DNA from: Prochlorothrix hollandica PCC 9006 = CALU 1027
GTDB lineage: Bacteria; Cyanobacteriota; Cyanobacteriia; Prochlorotrichales; Prochlorotrichaceae
Direction: 5' to 3'
Length of the DNA stretch: 47,606 nucleotides
Assembly (NCBI RefSeq): GCF_000332315.1
Contig: NZ_KB235941.1
Span: 1,233,609-1,281,214, forward strand
Within the stretch, counting starts at the first letter, position 1; each line of letters opens with the position of its first letter. This document shows positions 8,887-21,524 of this stretch, in pieces. Position numbers and translations under genes: made by a program. The notes under the pieces were generated by a model that ran no database searches, was not told the origin of the DNA, and saw only the letters and a program-made list of their open reading frames with translations.

Positions 8887-9657
8887 TTAAAACCCTGACC
8901 AAGTATCAATAATTTTAAGCATTGTTTTGTCTCCCAATTTATCGGTACGGCTGACTACATCTGTAAAGGAATCAAAGGGAGATGTCTTACGGGCGTTGAT
9001 GATGTTCTTCGTCAGGTTCTCTAAGGTCTTACCTGGGATTCCAGCTTTCTTTAGGGCTTTAAAGAGATCTACCTCAGAAAGTTGATTAAACATATCTAAA
9101 GGCTTAAGCTTCGAGGACATATGACCTTCGATATTTGCCACCTTATTTTGTAGGTAATCAATATCTTTTTGGTAGGATACTTTGAGATCTCGGATATCTT
9201 GATCATGGCGAGTTTCTAAGTTAGAAATCCTTGCATTTAATAATTGTAAGACATCATTATTTATCGGTGCAGAATTTATCGGTGCAGAATCCGTAAGTGC
9301 AGAATCCGTAAGTGCAGAACCTGTCAGTGCAGAATCCGTCGGTGCCGAAGTCATTGAACCCGACATCAGACGGATTTGTGCGTTGGCAGCTTCAACTTTA
9401 TCTGCTTCAATGACAAACGCATCAACCATTTCAATCTCTGCATTAATTTCACTGGCTCGCATACCGGCATAGTAGCCTTCTTCCCCTGAAATAATCCTAT
9501 AGCTTTCAGGACCAGTAGCTTCCAAAACAAGAGGTTGTAGCAGGGATCCCGTTTCAATCAAGTTGTGAGCCAGATCATCAATACGCTGAACATTAAACTG
9601 AGATCTTGGAGTTGCGCATTCAATGCTTTCAAGATCAACTAGGTAAAATCTAGGCAT
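8887..9657 (-). CDS. ParB-like protein with HhH-like C terminus
   Basis: The 256-aa protein has an N-terminal ParB/Spo0J-type domain (LVDLESIECATPRSQF, LIETGSLLQPLVLEATG, YRIISGEEGYYAGMRA). The canonical GERR motif used for CTP binding in classical ParB reads GEEGYYAG here, so the CTPase function may be altered. Residues about 103-136 form a Ser/Ala-rich linker of five-residue repeats (ALTDS, APINS) coded by 15-bp DNA repeats (about 9263-9350). A coiled coil (about 137-185) and a C-terminal helical domain follow; IINARKTSPFDSFTDVV with LGDKTMLKIIDTW resembles a helix-hairpin-helix, a DNA-binding motif. The ATG overlaps the TAA of the upstream ParA fusion by one base (TAATG), implying translational coupling. 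Low GC and few HIP1 sites suggest transfer. Confidence 0.72.
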   Translation of the reverse strand: MPRFYLVDLESIECATPRSQFNVQRIDDLAHNLIETGSLLQPLVLEATGPESYRIISGEEGYYAGMRASEINAEIEMVDAFVIEADKVEAANAQIRLMSGSMTSAPTDSALTGSALTDSALTDSAPINSAPINNDVLQLLNARISNLETRHDQDIRDLKVSYQKDIDYLQNKVANIEGHMSSKLKPLDMFNQLSEVDLFKALKKAGIPGKTLENLTKNIINARKTSPFDSFTDVVSRTDKLGDKTMLKIIDTWSGF

Positions 9658-11252
9658 TACGAATCTCCAATTTTTTCTAAAACTTCCATAGCTAAATTTC
9701 TGAAATCCTGGGCTGATTTGGATGTTCCATTCTTGTACTTAAAGACCGACTGAGGCTCTGGAATTTGGAGATTTCCAAAAATCTGAATCTCATTGAGACA
9801 ATTAGACAATTCGGAGAGTTCGGAAATGATAGTCTCCATGACGGGCAACTCATAGTTTTCAATGACCCTATCAACTTGACGAGGAAATGTATGCTGTCGG
9901 TATTTGGAGTTGCCAAGAATCTTTGATGGCAAAACTCCTAAGATTTTGATATCACTCTTTCCGATCTCGTTACGCACTGGGTTTATTTCATTATTAATGA
10001 AATCTTTGACATTTTTAAGACCTTGATTAGCAAATGGCTTCATATCAGACGGAATAATTAAGTAGTCCGCAGAAATGAGAGCAACCTCTGCATAAATATC
10101 ACGGGAAGGAGGAGCATCAATGATAACAATATCATAGAGATCACTAACAGCCTCTAGCTTCCTCAGGAGACGAAAGCGACTGGTGGCAAATTTCGTCAAC
10201 TTTTCCTGTTTCTCAATTAAAGTAATATGGGATGGAATCACATCAATTTCTGGCAAGTTAAATCCATCTGATTGACGAACTACATCAGGAATAAAATGAG
10301 TTTTTGACTTTTCCAATAAATGATAAATATTATTGTTGACAAGATTGTCATCTTCTTCAAATTGAAACTTGATCAGTCCTACGGCAAAGGTGGAGTTAGC
10401 CTGGGCATCAACATCCACGAGTAAAACCCGGCGACCCTGGTTAGCGAAGGCCGCTGCTAGGTTTGTGGAAACCGTGGTTTTGCCCACACCCCCTTTGTTG
10501 TGATAAATGGTAATAACTTTCATAGACGGGGAAACGATCTCCTGGTGAGATATTGCTGAAGACACTGGACTAATAACCGTAGTTTTAGGAGCTACGATCG
10601 GCTCCGGATCTAGAAGTCCATCGGACCCAGCCTCAGGTACCTCTACGATCGTTGGCTCCGTTGACTCCGCAGCCTTGGCAGCATCTGGGGAGACCATAGC
10701 AGACAAGGGAGCACCTGCGTTATCTACGGCAGAACTTGATGCAAGCTTTGAGTCTGAGGTCAGGGGGTTGGGTGCCCAGCCCAACCGTTGCCGCATGTGA
10801 TCTCGGCCTATGATCGATCGCAATTCTTCGATGCGATCCTTCACCTCATGACCCGTACAGGAAAACACCAAACGGGTTTGCTGATCACGTCGTTCATAGA
10901 CCCGCACCTCTCGACCATTGGTGAGCAACCCATAGGGTACCCGTAAATTGGCTAGGTACTGGTGCTGTATTTTCGATGCGTGGCGATCGAGACCTTGGTG
11001 GGGAGCCTTAGCCTCAATCACTAAACCGAGGGGTTCCTGATTGCCTAGGGTTCGGGGCAAGACTCGCGCTGCAAAAGCCAGGAAATCTAGCCGAATCTGT
11101 CCACCGATCGCCACTTCCTGATACCACGACCAGCGATCGTACCCCAAAGCAGGCAAGAGGTAACCTACAATAAATTTACTCTCCACCTCGGCCTCATTAC
11201 GACAGAGGGCTGGATCAAAATCTGAAGTTGGCAGAGGGTTCATCAATATCAT
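9657..11252 (-). CDS. HsdR-N-type nuclease domain fused to ParA-like ATPase
   Basis: Residues 10-155 match the type I restriction HsdR N-terminal (PD-(D/E)XK) domain: [20 protein letters not shown], then RLDFLAF with D56 and [10 protein letters not shown] with E80 and K82, all catalytic positions retained, followed by [16 protein letters not shown] Ser/Pro/Ala linker (about 165-242) leads to a ParA/MinD ATPase. It shows the deviant Walker A KGGVGKTT (253-260), [12 protein letters not shown], and the Walker B-like [11 protein letters not shown]. At 531 aa it is about twice a normal ParA. In ParA proteins ATP-dependent DNA binding drives cargo partition; the nuclease-fold domain could cut or bind DNA. 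It is coupled to the ParB-like gene by a one-base overlap. The N-terminal part is GC-richer than the ATPase part (by eye), as if two sources were joined. No SD-like sequence decides between ATGs at 11252 and 11243. Confidence 0.85.
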
Positions 11253-11614: not shown

Positions 11615-14600
11615 CTAGGGGTTCCGGAGGCGCTGGGTGAGTCCGGCCACCCCCAGCCCAGCCAACCCCATCGCCAGCAAAGGCGGCACCCACGGCAACC
11701 AGCCGCCACTGGCCACCAACACCCCATAGCACAGCGCCGTTAGCCCTAGCCCCAATGCCACACCCCCCAACAACCGCTGCCCCAGGGGAGACACCGCCCA
11801 GACCCAGACAGCGGCAAGGCTAGCCCAGAACCCGATCCAGAGACTTTCCCAGCCCCAGTTCCACCACCAGATCAGGGGACGATCGTCCAGCACCGCACTA
11901 ATCAATTGACTCGCTAATTGGCCCTGGACATAAACCCCCGGCAGTTCCCCCAGGGGAGTGGACCAAAAATCACTGGTGGGATCGGCCCGATCGCTGAAGC
12001 CAATCAAGACCAAGCGATCGCGGAATAACGAGTCTAACTGCGCTGCTGTTAGTTCTCCCGTCAAAACTGCCTTGAAGGAAACACGGGGGGCAAAATGGAG
12101 GGGTGCCGAGGGCAGACGGCTATTATCCAGGGAAGGGGACGATCGGAAATTGACCATCATCTGATAACCCTGGAGCAAGTTCATGTCCCGATAACCGCCC
12201 CCCCACACCCACAGAGCAGGCAGCGATCGCGGACCCAGGGTCATGATTTTGGCCAAATAGACCTCTCCCCCCTCCTCGACATAGGGAGACCCATAGCCCT
12301 GGCCCTCAGCTACCAGAAAACGCTGAGCTAACACCAGACTAAAAGCTTGATCCACAGGGCAAAATTGCTCATCAGGCAGCTTCAGCAGATAGTGACGGCG
12401 GATCATCTTTTCCCCATCTTCCGAGAAATCGGAAAAGCCCACCCGCTGAGCCACCGCCACCGCCGGGACTTCTGGGGGGGGACTATAGCCCTCCACCGGT
12501 AACCCCTGCTCGTCAACGGTGCTGCCCTTACAGAGCATGACCAAGTTATCCATGGTTTTGAGGCGATCGGCCACCACAGACTGGGCTTGGAAATCCCGGT
12601 AAAAGTCCAAAGCGAGAACCCTGGGTTCGTGACGGGCCACAGTGTCCAGTAAATCCGCCAAGGCTGCATCGGGAATGGTGCCTAAGCCCGGTTGATAGCG
12701 TCCTGCAATTAACTGACTGCGGAGCCAGCGGGTACTGGCGGCATCCACCTCCACCACCACTAGCCGCTGATCCGGGGGTTCCGAGGGTCGCCACTGCATC
12801 AAGGTATCATAGGCCCGCAACTCAGCCCCCTGGGTCGCCCCCAGTAGTCGGGCCACGATCACCACCACCGTGGCCACCACCGTTGTGCCCACCAGGGATT
12901 TCAGGCTTAAGCGACGATGGGGCAACCGACGACTAGCCGTCAGGTAGGCTTCCTGTAGGGCCGTTGCCTTGGGGCTGCGTTTCTGGGTCTCCTGCAACCA
13001 CTGTAGGGCTTGGCTTAAGTCCTTACCCCGCAGAAGAAAGCCATCATCCCGCCCCGACTGTTCCCATTCATTGGCTTTGACCAGCAAACGGGTATGATTT
13101 TGGATGTAGAGGGGATCACTGGCTAAGAACCGTACTAATTCCCCGAAATTGGAGAGAAAGTCGCTGCCACGACGACGGAAGTCAATCCATTGCACCGTGG
13201 CAATGGCGGGGTGGAGGGATGAGGGGGGAGCCTCCCGATGGAGCACTGCCACAAACCGTTTATTAAGCTGGCTAGCATATTCAATTTCAGCGCTGGCATA
13301 GGGAGATGAGACGGAACTAGGGGAAATTATAAAAAGAAAGTTTTCAGAATTTTCAATCCCTTTATAAATCTCCGTCTGAAAGTCCTTGCCCGTATCAATA
13401 TTTTCCTGATCAAACCAGGTAAACATGCCCTGGATTTGTAGGTTTTCATTTAATTTACGGGCAAAGTCAGCATCCGCACGGGAATAGGAGATGAAAACAT
13501 TAAAGGTTTGGTGGGGGGGTTGTTTGCGGCTTTCGTCCAGAAATTCGGCTTGGGCAGCTACTAAGGAATAGACAGTATTTTGCTTAGCGATCTGATACCA
13601 GCTTTCCATTTGGCGAAGACCATAGCCCCGCAGTAAAATGCTAGGGTTCCGCTGTTGCCGTTGCCACTTTAGGGCTTGGGTCAAGAGCATCTTATGTTGG
13701 TAATGGTAAGGAGCGTTATTCTGAACTTCTTTAATCAGTTTATTGATAGCGATGTCATAACTAGTGCCATTCTCCCATTGACTAAAATCAATGAATTGCA
13801 AAGCCCGAATATCTTCGGGAATATAGGTGAGATCGGTGGAGCTAATTAAAAGGGGAATAATACGTTTTTTGAGGGAATAACCATAGGCCACGACCTGTTG
13901 ACAGTGGGGGGAAGCTACGGCTTGGGGGGAGATCAGAACCACGATGTTATCGGCTTCCTCAATGCCCCGATCGATCTGATTTTGGAACTCTGTGCCCCCT
14001 GCCAAATCGGTTCGGTTGATCCAGACCGTAATGCCTTCCCGCATTAAGCTACAGTGAATTTTCTCCCGGAGATCGCGATCGGTCTCTGCGTAGGCAATAA
14101 AGACCTGGGTCATCAGGTTATTGGCATTTTTCAGACTTTCGCAAATAAATTCACACTGGAGACTCGTTGGCAGGCAGGGGGGTTGGCGATCGGTAAATTG
14201 GGTCTTCAGCCAGCTTTCAGCGGTTTTGAGCTGATCCCCCGTTAATAAATAGCGGGTCTGGCACTGGTGGCGTTGCCAATCCATGGCCCGACAGAGTAAT
14301 TCGGTGTGGTCATGAACATAGTCGCGATCGCGGTCCAGCAGGGCCAGCAACCCCCCAAAGGAAGCCTGATCATCATCCATACCGGGGCGAAAATAAATCC
14401 AGTTAACTTTGCCAATGCTCACCGGCATCTGGGGGAAAACAGAGTGTTTACCGGCGGCGGTGTAGGCCAGCCAATCCTCTGGGGTGCCCTGGGGGTGGCG
14501 CTGTTGCCAAGTGTCATGGCTAATTTCCTCCACATGTAAGAGGGGAATGATGCGCTTATTCCGCGCCACGGCCAACTCAATTTCTTTGGCACAGTAGGGG

Positions 14601-16126
14601 GAATTGACGGAGTGGGGGGAAATAATATAAATAAAGTTGTCGGATTTGTCTAATCCATCATTAATCTGATCCTGAAAATCGACACCGAGGGGGATATCAT
14701 TTTGATCAAACCAAACCCGATAGCCCGCTTGACTGAGGCGATCGTGGAGATCAAAGGCAAAATCTTTACTGTCAGCGCGACCATAGGAAATAAAGGCATC
14801 GAAAAATTTGTTTTTCTCCCGACTCCCCGCCACATAATCATCCTGGGTTAGGATCAGGGGCAATAGATCGGGGGCATGATCAGCAGGTTGCTGCTGTTGG
14901 AGCTGGATCCAATGCTCAGCCACAGCCAACTCATCGGCCCGCAATAATAAACCCTTGGGCCGTTCCCGTTGATCCCAGTGCAGGGCTTTGACTAGGAGGG
15001 TTTTGTGCCAGTAATCATAATCCTGGTGGCGTTTGAGGGTTTGGAGTAAAGTATCCAGAGCTATGGCGTAACTTGCTGGGTCGCTAAAGTTTTGATTGTT
15101 AATAAATTGCAGCGATCGCTGATCCTGGGGAATCTGTTCCAGGGGTACATCAGCCATCAGCATGGGAATAATGCGCTTGTTTAATTGGCGGCCATAGGCC
15201 AGTTCCTGTTGACAGTAGGGGGAGGCCAGGGAATGGGCGGAGAGTAGATACACCAGGGTATCGGCCCGTTCAATGCCTCGGCTAATCTCCTGTTGAAAAT
15301 CAGCCCCGGTGCGAATATTAGCCCGGTTTGTCCAGACGGGCATCCCTTCCCGCAGCAAACTCCAACGTAGCGTCTCGGTAATGTCTATATCCTGTTCGGA
15401 GTGGCAGAGGAAAACACGGGTTGCCCCTCCCTGGGCTTCTGATAAACTGGTGCAAATATACTCGCTGTGGCGATCCGTTGGCTGACAGGGGGCTTGTTCC
15501 GCCGTAAACCGCCGCCCTAGCCATTGCTGGGCTTGGTGTAATGCCTCTCCCTGCAACAGATCACTGGGCTGCTTCTGGTGTTGTGCCCAGTGGTTAGCCT
15601 GCACGAGGAGTTGGGTATGCTGTTGCACATAGTCCCGTTGACGCTCTAAGGTTTGGCTAATGGTGACCAAACTGGACTCGAAATCATCGATGCCCTCCCG
15701 ACAGTTCACCCAGTTAATTTTACCGAGGGCTGGGTGTAAATGAGCCAAGCTCGTGTGCCGCCCTGCTTGACGGTACTGGTGCCAGTCTTGATCCGTCCCC
15801 TCTGGATTACGGGCTTGCCAGGTCTCGCGGCTTATCTCTTCCACATGCATCAGGGGAATAATGCGTTTTTTCAACTGTAATGCCAACTCTAGCTCTAAGG
15901 TGCAATAGGGAGAGTTGACGGAGTGGGGGGAAATAATATAAATGAAATTGTGGGCGGCGGTAATTCCCTGATCAATTTGCTGTTGGTAATCAACCCCTGG
16001 GGGAATATCTTCAAAATCAAACCAAAGACTATAGCCTTGATCCGTCAGGCGATCGTGGATGTGTTGAGCAAATTGCCGACTGTCAGCACGTCCATAGGAA
16101 ATAAAGGCATCCTGCAATGGGTTCAT
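11615..16126 (-). CDS. Five-TIR-domain protein with C-terminal CHASE2 and membrane segments
   Basis: The 1503-aa protein has five TIR domains at about residues 5-125, 235-350, 445-565, 675-790 and 875-990. Domains 1 and 3 share DAFISYGRADS and FIYIISPHSVNSPYC. Domains 2 and 4 share a different type (SLLREGMPVW, SLMREGITVW), so two A-B modules are duplicated before a fifth domain (VFISYSRADADF). The NADase-type glutamate follows SPYC in domains 1, 2 and 3 and is kept in domain 5 (SPYASAEIE). In domain 4 it is valine (SPHCQQVVAYG). Each TIR is followed by a helical linker (HTxLLxxAxxW...LLxG). A membrane helix at about 1080 precedes a CHASE2 domain (AYDTLMQWRPSEPPDQRLVV), probably extracytoplasmic, and the C terminus has two or three more helices (IWWWNWGWESLWIGFW). 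ATG 16126 is preferred over TTG 16177 because homology starts there. Signalling across the membrane to NAD-cleaving TIRs is inference. Confidence 0.9.
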   Translation of the reverse strand: MNPLQDAFISYGRADSRQFAQHIHDRLTDQGYSLWFDFEDIPPGVDYQQQIDQGITAAHNFIYIISPHSVNSPYCTLELELALQLKKRIIPLMHVEEISRETWQARNPEGTDQDWHQYRQAGRHTSLAHLHPALGKINWVNCREGIDDFESSLVTISQTLERQRDYVQQHTQLLVQANHWAQHQKQPSDLLQGEALHQAQQWLGRRFTAEQAPCQPTDRHSEYICTSLSEAQGGATRVFLCHSEQDIDITETLRWSLLREGMPVWTNRANIRTGADFQQEISRGIERADTLVYLLSAHSLASPYCQQELAYGRQLNKRIIPMLMADVPLEQIPQDQRSLQFINNQNFSDPASYAIALDTLLQTLKRHQDYDYWHKTLLVKALHWDQRERPKGLLLRADELAVAEHWIQLQQQQPADHAPDLLPLILTQDDYVAGSREKNKFFDAFISYGRADSKDFAFDLHDRLSQAGYRVWFDQNDIPLGVDFQDQINDGLDKSDNFIYIISPHSVNSPYCAKEIELAVARNKRIIPLLHVEEISHDTWQQRHPQGTPEDWLAYTAAGKHSVFPQMPVSIGKVNWIYFRPGMDDDQASFGGLLALLDRDRDYVHDHTELLCRAMDWQRHQCQTRYLLTGDQLKTAESWLKTQFTDRQPPCLPTSLQCEFICESLKNANNLMTQVFIAYAETDRDLREKIHCSLMREGITVWINRTDLAGGTEFQNQIDRGIEEADNIVVLISPQAVASPHCQQVVAYGYSLKKRIIPLLISSTDLTYIPEDIRALQFIDFSQWENGTSYDIAINKLIKEVQNNAPYHYQHKMLLTQALKWQRQQRNPSILLRGYGLRQMESWYQIAKQNTVYSLVAAQAEFLDESRKQPPHQTFNVFISYSRADADFARKLNENLQIQGMFTWFDQENIDTGKDFQTEIYKGIENSENFLFIISPSSVSSPYASAEIEYASQLNKRFVAVLHREAPPSSLHPAIATVQWIDFRRRGSDFLSNFGELVRFLASDPLYIQNHTRLLVKANEWEQSGRDDGFLLRGKDLSQALQWLQETQKRSPKATALQEAYLTASRRLPHRRLSLKSLVGTTVVATVVVIVARLLGATQGAELRAYDTLMQWRPSEPPDQRLVVVEVDAASTRWLRSQLIAGRYQPGLGTIPDAALADLLDTVARHEPRVLALDFYRDFQAQSVVADRLKTMDNLVMLCKGSTVDEQGLPVEGYSPPPEVPAVAVAQRVGFSDFSEDGEKMIRRHYLLKLPDEQFCPVDQAFSLVLAQRFLVAEGQGYGSPYVEEGGEVYLAKIMTLGPRSLPALWVWGGGYRDMNLLQGYQMMVNFRSSPSLDNSRLPSAPLHFAPRVSFKAVLTGELTAAQLDSLFRDRLVLIGFSDRADPTSDFWSTPLGELPGVYVQGQLASQLISAVLDDRPLIWWWNWGWESLWIGFWASLAAVWVWAVSPLGQRLLGGVALGLGLTALCYGVLVASGGWLPWVPPLLAMGLAGLGVAGLTQRLRNP

Positions 16127-16166: not shown

Positions 16167-16970
16167 AGGAGTGACAAACCTAACGCCAGGAGCCAGCGTC
16201 AGGTTACCTCTAGGATACGTTAGTGGGAGGACAGAGGATGGACATATTACGAGGATTTAAGATTCTCTGGGATCATCGGCCAAACCTGAGGCGGGACAAC
16301 TAGGACACCAGGGCGCAAGTTAGCCTATTCTTCAAAATTCCAGCGTATCGCAGGATCGATCGGTCAAAAGAGTGGCCCAAAAAGAAAGGGGGACGACAGG
16401 AGGTTAACCCAAGCCAACCCCCTCGACGACGGGGTGTGAGGAGTTTTAAGCGGTGGCAAGCCAGACCGAGAACAGATTCTGGTAGGTTGGCTAGCAGGTT
16501 GGCCAGCAGGTTGGCTAGACGATCGCAGCCCATCAGTAGCCCTAGGCTAACTCTCCCTGGAACAGGATCAATTGCCCAGCCATAGATCGATCGGGCTAGC
16601 AGAGTCGGATCGGGGAAAAGCAGAATCAGAGCAGCGTATTCAGAACACTGTATTCAGAACGAAAGCGAGGGATTCCCCGACCCAGGGCAAGACCCATATC
16701 GCTGAGTTGACTAGCCTACTGGGTTGACTTTGGCGGTTGACTTTGGCGGTTGACTTTGGCGGTTGACTTTGGCAGTTAGTGTGAGCAGTGACTGTGAGCG
16801 GTTAATGAGAGGATCGGTTAATGGGAGCGGTTAGTGTGAGCAGTGACTGTGAGCGGTTAATGGGAGGATCGGTTAATGGGAGCGGTTAATGAGAGGATCG
16901 GTTAATGGGAGCGGTTAGTGTGAGCAGTGACTGTGAGCGGTTAATGGGAGGATCGGTTAATGGGACCCGT
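16167..16970. other. Intergenic region with several tandem arrays, no clear gene
   Basis: It holds three 12-bp AGGTTGGCTAGC units (16484-16519), then the arrays listed at 16724-16968. A 77-aa minus-strand frame at 16300-16533 is low-complexity over the 12-bp repeat and is not supported. The region should contain the promoter of the five-TIR gene, but no clear -10/-35 stands out. Confidence 0.55.
16724..16968. repeat. Compound tandem array (13-bp units, then about 55-bp higher-order units)
   Basis: Four copies of TTGACTTTGGCGG (from 16724) pass into a higher-order array of about 55 bp. That array is built from GCGGTTAATGGGA, GATCGGTTAATGGGA and GTGTGAGCAGTGACTGTGA blocks and repeats to 16968. 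The motif GGTTAATGGGA recurs at short regular spacing. The array ends a few bases before the stop of the 93-aa gene. Confidence 0.85.
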
Positions 16971-20269: not shown

Positions 20270-20312
20270 TGCGCCTACCCATCGTCTATCCATTTATGCT
20301 ATCATGGTTAGC

Positions 20313-21524
20313 ATGAAAGTACGATACCAGTATCGAATTTATCCGACACCGCAACAGGTCAAAGGGCTGAATCAGCTTTTTGGGTGTTGCCGAGTTGTGT
20401 ACAACGATGCCCTGGCGATTGTGCGGTCAGTGCCGCAGGGCGAGAAATGGCCCAGCAATGCTGAACTGCAAAAGCTGGTGATCACTCAGGCCAAAAAGAC
20501 GGCTGAACGGAAATGGTTGGCCGATGTGTCAGTCGTGCCCTTGCAGCAGTCGGTTCAGGATTTAGGTGTTGCCTTCAAGAACTTTTTCGAGAGCCGTAGC
20601 GGTAAACGAAAAGGGCCAAAGGTGGGCTTCCCTCGGTTCAAAAAGAAGCTGAACCAACAGTCGGCACGGTTTGTTCGGACGGGATTCTCCCTCAAGGGCA
20701 ATAAGCTTGAACTGGCCAAGTTAGGCCGCTTCAAGGTGAAGTGGTCAAGGCCACTGCCCTCTGAACCTAGCTCTGTGACCATTATCCGTAACACGGCTGG
20801 ACAATACCATGCCAGCTTTGTCGTGGAGATTGGATCCATCAACATTGAGCCACTACGGCCCTCAATTGGGGTAGATCTAGGCATCAAAACCTTTGCCTTT
20901 CTCAGCACAGGTGATCGGGTAGAATCCCCTGGATATAATCGATTAGACCGCAAGACGCGACGGTTTCAGCGCAAGCTGGCCCGCCAAGTTAAAGGGTCTA
21001 AGCGTCGCGAAAAGACTAGGCTGCGCCTTGCAAAGCTGAAGCTAAAAACGGCCAATATCCGAAAAGACTTTCTGCACAAGACCACGACCCAGCTCATCCA
21101 CGAAAATCAAGTGGTGGTGTTGGAGGATCTGGCGGTGAAGAATATGCTTGGTAATCGGAAGTTGGCACGGGCTATCAGTCAGCAGGGTTGGGGCACCGCA
21201 CGAACTATGTGTGAGGCCAAGGCCAACAGGGTTAATGATCGAGAGGTCAGGATCATCAGTCGGTGGGAGCCAACCAGTCAGATCTGTTCTGATTGTGGCT
21301 TTCGTTGGGGCAAGGTTGCTCTATCGGTTCGTTCCATCCTCTGTGTGAGTTGCGGCACCGAACATGATAGAGATGGTAATGCCGCCAAAAATATCGAAAA
21401 GTCTGGGTTGGGGCTAACCCAAGACTCTAAATGGACAAGGAACGGGCGTAAGACCAGGATGTCTGGCAATCCGACTGCTTTGTCTAGCCAGCCGTACAGC
21501 GAACAGCTTGGACTATTCGCCTAG
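20313..21524 (+). CDS. tnpB: TnpB RNA-guided nuclease (IS605/IS1341 family)
   Basis: The 403-aa protein (from MKVRYQYRIYPTPQQVKGLN; a further ATG lies at 20304) is full length for TnpB. The N-terminal HTH region, the RuvC segment IGVDLGIKTFAFLSTGD (first Asp), VVVLEDLAVKNML (Glu) and the C-terminal CSDCG...CVSCG zinc ribbon followed by EHDRDGNAAKNI (last Asp) are all intact. It therefore should be a functional RNA-guided DNA endonuclease, the ancestor type of Cas12. In such elements the guide (omega) RNA is made from the right end overlapping the tnpB 3' part and reads into the flanking DNA after about 21562. Few frame-breaking changes suggest recent acquisition. Confidence 0.95.
   Translation: MKVRYQYRIYPTPQQVKGLNQLFGCCRVVYNDALAIVRSVPQGEKWPSNAELQKLVITQAKKTAERKWLADVSVVPLQQSVQDLGVAFKNFFESRSGKRKGPKVGFPRFKKKLNQQSARFVRTGFSLKGNKLELAKLGRFKVKWSRPLPSEPSSVTIIRNTAGQYHASFVVEIGSINIEPLRPSIGVDLGIKTFAFLSTGDRVESPGYNRLDRKTRRFQRKLARQVKGSKRREKTRLRLAKLKLKTANIRKDFLHKTTTQLIHENQVVVLEDLAVKNMLGNRKLARAISQQGWGTARTMCEAKANRVNDREVRIISRWEPTSQICSDCGFRWGKVALSVRSILCVSCGTEHDRDGNAAKNIEKSGLGLTQDSKWTRNGRKTRMSGNPTALSSQPYSEQLGLFA

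Follow-up and report, generated by a model that had tools for sequence, protein, structure and literature searches.

The 47,606-nucleotide stretch of Prochlorothrix hollandica DNA analysed here (the window) carries on its minus strand, at 11615-16126, a single open reading frame encoding a protein of 1503 residues, with its ATG at 16126 and a stop codon ending at 11615. An in-frame TTG at 16177 is a possible alternative start that would add 17 residues. The protein consists of five TIR_2 domains, each followed by a helical linker, then one transmembrane (TM) helix, a CHASE2 domain and three further TM helices. Pfam searches returned five TIR_2 stretches (total E 6.4e-132, 433.9 bits against a curated cut-off of 28) and one CHASE2 match at residues 1085-1439 (E 8.6e-48, 163.6 bits against a curated cut-off of 26.3). 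The claim of five TIR domains on a CHASE2 protein, made in the earlier note without naming the strand, was thus borne out, both families scoring far above their cut-offs.

The array begins with TIR1 (subtype A, residues 1-155, 15662-16126) and helical linker 1 (residues 165-232, 15431-15634), followed by TIR2 (subtype B, residues 234-366, 15029-15427) with linker 2 (residues 370-434, 14825-15019), TIR3 (subtype A, residues 441-598, 14333-14806) with linker 3 (residues 601-668, 14123-14326), TIR4 (subtype B, residues 673-802, 13721-14110) with linker 4 (residues 805-867, 13526-13714) and TIR5 (subtype A', residues 875-1001, 13124-13504) with linker 5 (residues 1005-1067, 12926-13114), which runs into the first TM helix. 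Alignment of the five units revealed the motif HTxLLvxAxxWxxxxxxxxLLrGxxLxxaxxWL...P behind every TIR, as expected from the shared linker proposed beforehand, and linkers 3 and 4 are helical in an AF2 model of TIR3-4-5. TM1 (about residues 1075-1094, 12845-12904) is preceded by the basic stretch SRRLPHRRLS; the CHASE2 domain (11810-12874) and TM2-4 (about residues 1424-1501, 11624-11857) complete the chain, which ends in a short basic C-terminus right behind TM4, with no output domain after TM2-4. Hydropathy and AF2 agree on one TM helix before CHASE2 and three after it, and basic residues lie before TM1 and at the C-terminus. The TIRs are accordingly modelled as cytoplasmic and CHASE2 as extracytoplasmic, a topology that we treat as predicted.

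The structure prediction suggested by the earlier note was run on TIR3-4-5 (AF2, 89 sequences) and gave a mean pLDDT of 90.3 and a pTM of 0.89, so the placing of the three TIRs and their linkers relative to each other is predicted confidently. A second model, from TIR5 to the C-terminus, places a single long helix ahead of CHASE2 and three behind it (pLDDT 85.7, pTM 0.68). The modelled TIRs match the structures of SARM1, SPARTA TIR-APAZ and AbTir with Z scores of 17-19, and their structural neighbours also include TIRs with a scaffold role, among them MyD88 and TLRs. By sequence, the best PDB matches of TIR3 are BtTir and AbTIR. Among the matches listed by a profile search, none was a solved structure related to the CHASE2 part, and Foldseek matches were dominated by the TIR part.

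Alignment of the five TIRs placed E78 (15893-15895), E308 (15203-15205), E515 (14582-14584), V745 (13892-13894) and E947 (13286-13288) in the catalytic-Glu column, exactly the pattern noted before (Glu in domains 1, 2, 3 and 5, Val in domain 4). In TIR1, 2, 3 and 5 this Glu lies in the helix behind an SxxxxSxYC motif. E515 of TIR3 aligns with the NADase Glu of AbTIR and is preceded, four residues earlier, by a Tyr where AbTIR has a Trp. The Asp of the WFD motif is absent from the B-type TIRs.

Comparison with relatives alters the reading of this pattern. Among 126 distinct proteins with a triple TIR block of subtypes A, B and A', the Glu is present in 126/126 A, 120/126 B and 100/126 A' domains. 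Among the 11 five-TIR proteins described below it is kept in TIR1 of 10, TIR2 of 10, TIR3 of all 11, TIR4 of 9 and TIR5 of 4, and it is thus lost from the last TIR in 7/11. Val745 was therefore rejected as a conserved feature, a Val in TIR4 being private to the window protein among its relatives. The division into NADase and structural copies suggested in the earlier note holds in so far as conserved and decaying sites both exist, but it had been drawn in the wrong place: as judged from the alignments, constraint is strongest on the A site and the copy that normally decays is the last TIR. In the 126 blocks the A' Glu is kept in 28/51 CHASE2 proteins versus 72/75 others (Fisher p 2e-8). We nevertheless rejected CHASE2 as the cause of this loss: with no more than four changes of CHASE2 on the tree, the excess cannot be separated from shared ancestry, and independent pairs give no support. 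The missing WFD Asp of the B copies, together with A' Glu loss in 23/51 CHASE2 proteins, means that several copies may serve as scaffold only.

The subtype labels are well founded. TIR1 and TIR3 are 52% identical and TIR2 and TIR4 41%; TIR5 shares 40-41% with TIR1 and TIR3, and A and B domains share 28-32%. A quick-search tree built from 117 TIR domains (SH-aLRT supports) puts TIR1 and TIR3 into clade A (99*), TIR2 and TIR4 into clade B (99*) and TIR5 into clade A' (92). The arrangement A-B-A-B-A' is therefore the correct description, in agreement with the pairing of domains 1 with 3 and 2 with 4 proposed in the earlier note. The duplication of a two-TIR module, also proposed there, stands as the addition of an A-B unit to an A-B-A' core, but not as a recent local event: all 11 five-TIR proteins have TIR2 copies that group together (SH-aLRT 84, unstarred), outside the grouping of B with TIR4, so that the extra A-B pair looks old and of one likely origin. 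It probably arose once, long ago. A fourth clade (99*) of the same tree holds the TIRs of single-TIR CHASE2 proteins, so that the joining of TIR to CHASE2 probably happened more than a single time; five such proteins (L069-L073) share the DUF928/TPS neighbourhood of the multi-TIR genes despite their own TIR clade, and probably represent an independent TIR-CHASE2 fusion.

The conserved unit of the family is the triple block A-B-A', and the 126 distinct proteins that carry it are nearly all cyanobacterial. The block leads into a hydrophobic helix, which is followed by CHASE2 or a WD40 propeller and, in a single case, by a dCache-like domain; as the C-termini are exchanged while the TIR block stays, they behave as inputs. 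The window genome has a single copy of a multi-TIR gene, and many relatives turned up when 390 genomes from its class were searched. The full block occurs in about 10/292 genomes of an evenly drawn sample of the phylum. Scanning a contig collection with patterns from one protein sequence gave no match, and a scan with the triple-block alignment succeeded, recovering 79 loci, all cyanobacterial as judged by title (Nostoc, Anabaena, Calothrix, Symploca, Okeania, Leptolyngbya, Microcystis and others). The five-TIR form is the longest of the family and comprises 11 proteins including that of the window, with members in other genera; CHASE2 is visible in 10/11, the remaining one being cut by a contig end.

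A phage origin was rejected, as the number of viral contigs encoding a relative was zero, and so was a plasmid origin, for which only Kovacikia, Bernardetia and Tolypothrix, among the matches listed, matched beyond the CHASE2 part. On a 602 kb replicon of Bernardetia (Bacteroidota) a triple-TIR protein (L173:8995-11502) ends in a C-terminus of about 200 residues without a Pfam match; transposase genes lie upstream of its gene, and a transfer between phyla is possible.

CHASE2 usually stands before its output domain, although not universally. This usual order, with CHASE2 before GGDEF-EAL, cyclase or kinase domains, is found in the same genome (L002-L004, from sequence reading and established family knowledge), whereas in the window protein the output is N-terminal. 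The earlier note had considered this placement unusual, a view that did not survive comparison with the CHASE2-only matches sampled from the class search. All 12 of these (L191-L202, for instance L191:5849-9099) have the effector first and an adjoining DUF928 gene, and CHAT precedes CHASE2 in 4/4 of those scanned with Pfam; CHAT-CHASE2 proteins thus share both the order and the neighbours. A DUF1822 gene precedes the effector-CHASE2 genes in the scanned loci, joined in L191 by a sigma-70-like gene, and TPS and CHAT genes lie near several. Loci of this type look like a conserved cyanobacterial surface-system locus. As effector-CHASE2, DUF928 and TPS recur together, a TIR array can evidently stand where CHAT stands.

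The neighbourhoods of the TIR genes, with identities set by Pfam (DUF928, TPS, CHAT, LSDAT, DUF4231/SLATT_3), differ with the sensor. With short-flank genes counted only when a match was present, which inflates the rates somewhat, DUF928 lies within 5 kb of 37/41 CHASE2-TIR genes versus 2/36 non-CHASE2 TIR genes and within 500 bp of 36/45 CHASE2-TIR genes, a TPS-cluster gene is near 34/41 versus 7/39, and a TpsB transporter is near 20/37 CHASE2-TIR genes. CHAT near CHASE2-TIR genes is either fused to a TPS protein or carried by a separate TPR-CHAT protein. LSDAT_prok (SLOG) and DUF4231/SLATT_3 genes occur near triple-TIR genes with both sensor types (LSDAT within 5 kb in 5/31 and 9/39), a linkage confined to a minority, roughly one locus in five at a distance of 5 kb or less. 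LSDAT genes are rare, about 41 in 30 genomes or one to two per genome, and by hand count 10 of them have a multi-TIR gene no more than 10 kb away (G050, G072, G168, G161, G351, G357, G337, G144, G249 and G209). DUF4231/SLATT_3 genes also recur beside WD40-type members, some of which have RyR and TPR-S genes or patatin genes next to them. RyR and TPR-S genes, identified in the L171 copy (L171:1850-4174), lie close to triple-TIR WD40 genes in L122, L134, L137 and L140 as well. In L086:8620-10935, L075:9629-11827 and L041:13232-14761, two-TM DUF4231/SLATT_3 proteins encoded beside LSDAT and triple-TIR genes carry a fused C39-like peptidase domain, a glycoside hydrolase 19-like domain or both.

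The local neighbourhood of the window gene is of another kind. Annotation revealed no DUF928, TPS, LSDAT/SLOG or SLATT gene adjoining it; it is followed, in its own orientation, by a gene joining HSDR_N to a ParA-like domain, a ParB_N gene and a GvpL/F-like gene, and an amine oxidase gene is also among the neighbours. CHASE2 follows the effector as in the effector-CHASE2 family, but the adjoining DUF928 of that family is missing; the five DUF928 genes and one LSDAT gene of the genome are all on other contigs. The nearest TPS and TPR-CHAT genes begin about 17.6 kb downstream, past purD-like and RPE65-like genes. With this pair so distant and 11 TPS genes in the genome, a DUF928/TPS linkage of the window gene was rejected, and the pair's position may be due to chance. 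The HSDR_N-like part (a weak match) and the ParA-type ATPase are encoded at 9657-11252 (minus), overlapping the ParB_N gene at 8887-9657 (minus), and form an unusual partition-like pair on a 1.36 Mb contig. On the plus strand, an IS605 OrfB/TnpB-type gene with a Cas12f-like TNB domain (20304-21524) matches PADLOC Cas12f models.

We propose that the protein is a membrane receptor in which an extracytoplasmic CHASE2 sensor gates a pre-linked TIR NADase array, a plausible reading about which our belief and doubt are evenly balanced. In this reading the NADase activity, its product, the topology, the direction of signalling, the sensed cue and the step from CHASE2 to the TIRs are inferred. Known TIR NADases require at least two TIRs in proximity (PMC9153377). 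Here rigid helical linkers keep the TIR partners together in a single chain, so the likely switch would be a movement or clustering of entire arrays that CHASE2 drives through TM1, not the recruitment of single TIRs, and with proximity built in, the receptor would have to restrain the array for as long as the state of CHASE2 is unchanged. Because the chain stops directly behind TM4, any output would have to return through TM1 to the TIRs. After switching, NAD+ would be cleaved by the TIRs that carry the Glu, chiefly the A copies, and would either be drained or give an ADP-ribose-type signal; a signal is favoured by the LSDAT/SLOG and SLATT-like two-TM genes that recur close to array genes in relatives. 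In TIR systems SLOG is a predicted sensor of ADP-ribose derivatives and SLATT a predicted membrane effector (PMC9503650). For CHASE2 members, the tight DUF928/TPS/CHAT linkage suggests that the cue is the state of the TPS/CHAT surface system. A more detailed version, which we offer tentatively and regard as doubtful, is that A-B-A' constitutes a pre-assembled single-chain enzyme with composite A/B active sites and serves as transmitter in a modular family of cyanobacterial transmembrane receptors, which would convert an outside cue (linked in CHASE2 members to a TPS-CHAT surface system) into an NAD+-derived messenger read by LSDAT/SLOG proteins and SLATT-like pores. If true, the pathway would resemble Thoeris but be gated by a membrane receptor, and its design would make it a bacterial counterpart of Toll-like receptors.

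Two rivals concern what the TIRs do. They might be a non-enzymatic scaffold that only binds other TIR proteins by homotypic assembly and relays the CHASE2 signal, for which the Val of TIR4, the B copies without WFD, the A' Glu lost in many CHASE2 members and the MyD88 and TLR neighbours in structure comparison all speak; yet the Glu retained in every A and nearly every B domain is hardly expected of a pure scaffold, and TIR3 is closest in sequence to BtTir and AbTIR, so we consider this account unlikely. Alternatively, the array could only deplete NAD+, killing or arresting the cell with no second messenger, the SLOG and SLATT neighbours being incidental. Many prokaryotic TIR effectors bring about NAD+ depletion, and the lack of SLOG and SLATT neighbours at the window locus fits. 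SpbK is an NADase acting through abortive infection (PMC12847820). Pure depletion seems improbable to us all the same, given the share of the rare LSDAT genes that lie close to multi-TIR genes and the DUF4231/SLATT and RyR/TPR-S genes recurring beside WD40-type members.

The remaining rival, that the gene is a decaying paralogue, an orphan of the DUF928/TPS system without an active role in the window genome, draws on its single copy away from the usual neighbours, the Val at the catalytic position of TIR4 and a long terminal branch in the triple-block tree. We regard it as very unlikely: the 1503-residue frame is open without a stop, four of five Glu residues are kept, every domain scores far above its cut-off and the five-TIR form is retained in other genera.

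Each domain is already known, and TIR and CHASE2 occur separately in many systems. In the open-licence literature searched, outside which most subscription journals lie, we did not find three TIRs in one bacterial protein or a TIR-CHASE2 protein, nor the fixed A-B-A' block with swappable sensors, the five-TIR form, or the linkage to DUF928/TPS/CHAT and LSDAT/SLATT. Three to five ordered TIRs in one membrane-held chain with swappable sensors allow transmembrane allosteric gating of a TIR array, and active-site sharing between unequal TIRs, to be tested, with natural variants at hand in the A-type Glu that never changes, in the A' site that decays and in the exchange of CHASE2, WD40 and dCache. 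The family also bears on whether filamentous cyanobacteria employ TIR chemistry for cell-surface surveillance, and its receptors may convert an outside signal into an NAD+-derived alarm.

Among known systems, CHAT-CHASE2 proteins (for example L191, L192, L196 and L201) resemble the window protein in having the effector first and CHASE2 last, with DUF928 adjoining and TPS/CHAT often near; they differ in that their output is a CHAT protease-like domain and not a TIR array, and the window gene has no DUF928 gene beside it. Triple-TIR WD40 proteins share the A-B-A' block, the linker and the TM helix, but have three TIRs, a WD40 propeller in place of CHASE2 and a last TIR that nearly always keeps its Glu. 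In Thoeris, the ThsB TIR makes a signal that a SLOG-bearing effector reads. The likeness lies in the TIR domains, the Glu motif and the LSDAT/SLOG genes near relatives of the window protein, whereas in the window gene a membrane sensor is fused to the TIRs, and no ThsA-type partner was found among its adjoining genes (ParA, ParB, GvpL/F and amine oxidase). The NCBIfam ThcB4 equivalog model scored 159.7 bits, below its cut-off of 220, and the model for TIR antiphage retrons, which have a fused reverse transcriptase, 142.8 bits over the TIR part only, below its cut-off of 600. One CHASE2-DUF928-WD40 gene cluster has been noted in Nostoc (PMC5587647). With the NADases SARM1 and AbTir the window protein shares the TIR fold and the catalytic Glu with an aromatic residue four positions before it; it lacks the ARM/SAM or coiled-coil parts and places five TIRs in one chain where those enzymes assemble separate chains. 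More generally, most prokaryotic TIR effectors known so far reside in the cytoplasm and are switched when separate chains oligomerise. Mollusc Tolls likewise are membrane receptors with TIRs in tandem (PMC4929906), but they have two TIRs on an animal Toll receptor with an unrelated sensor.
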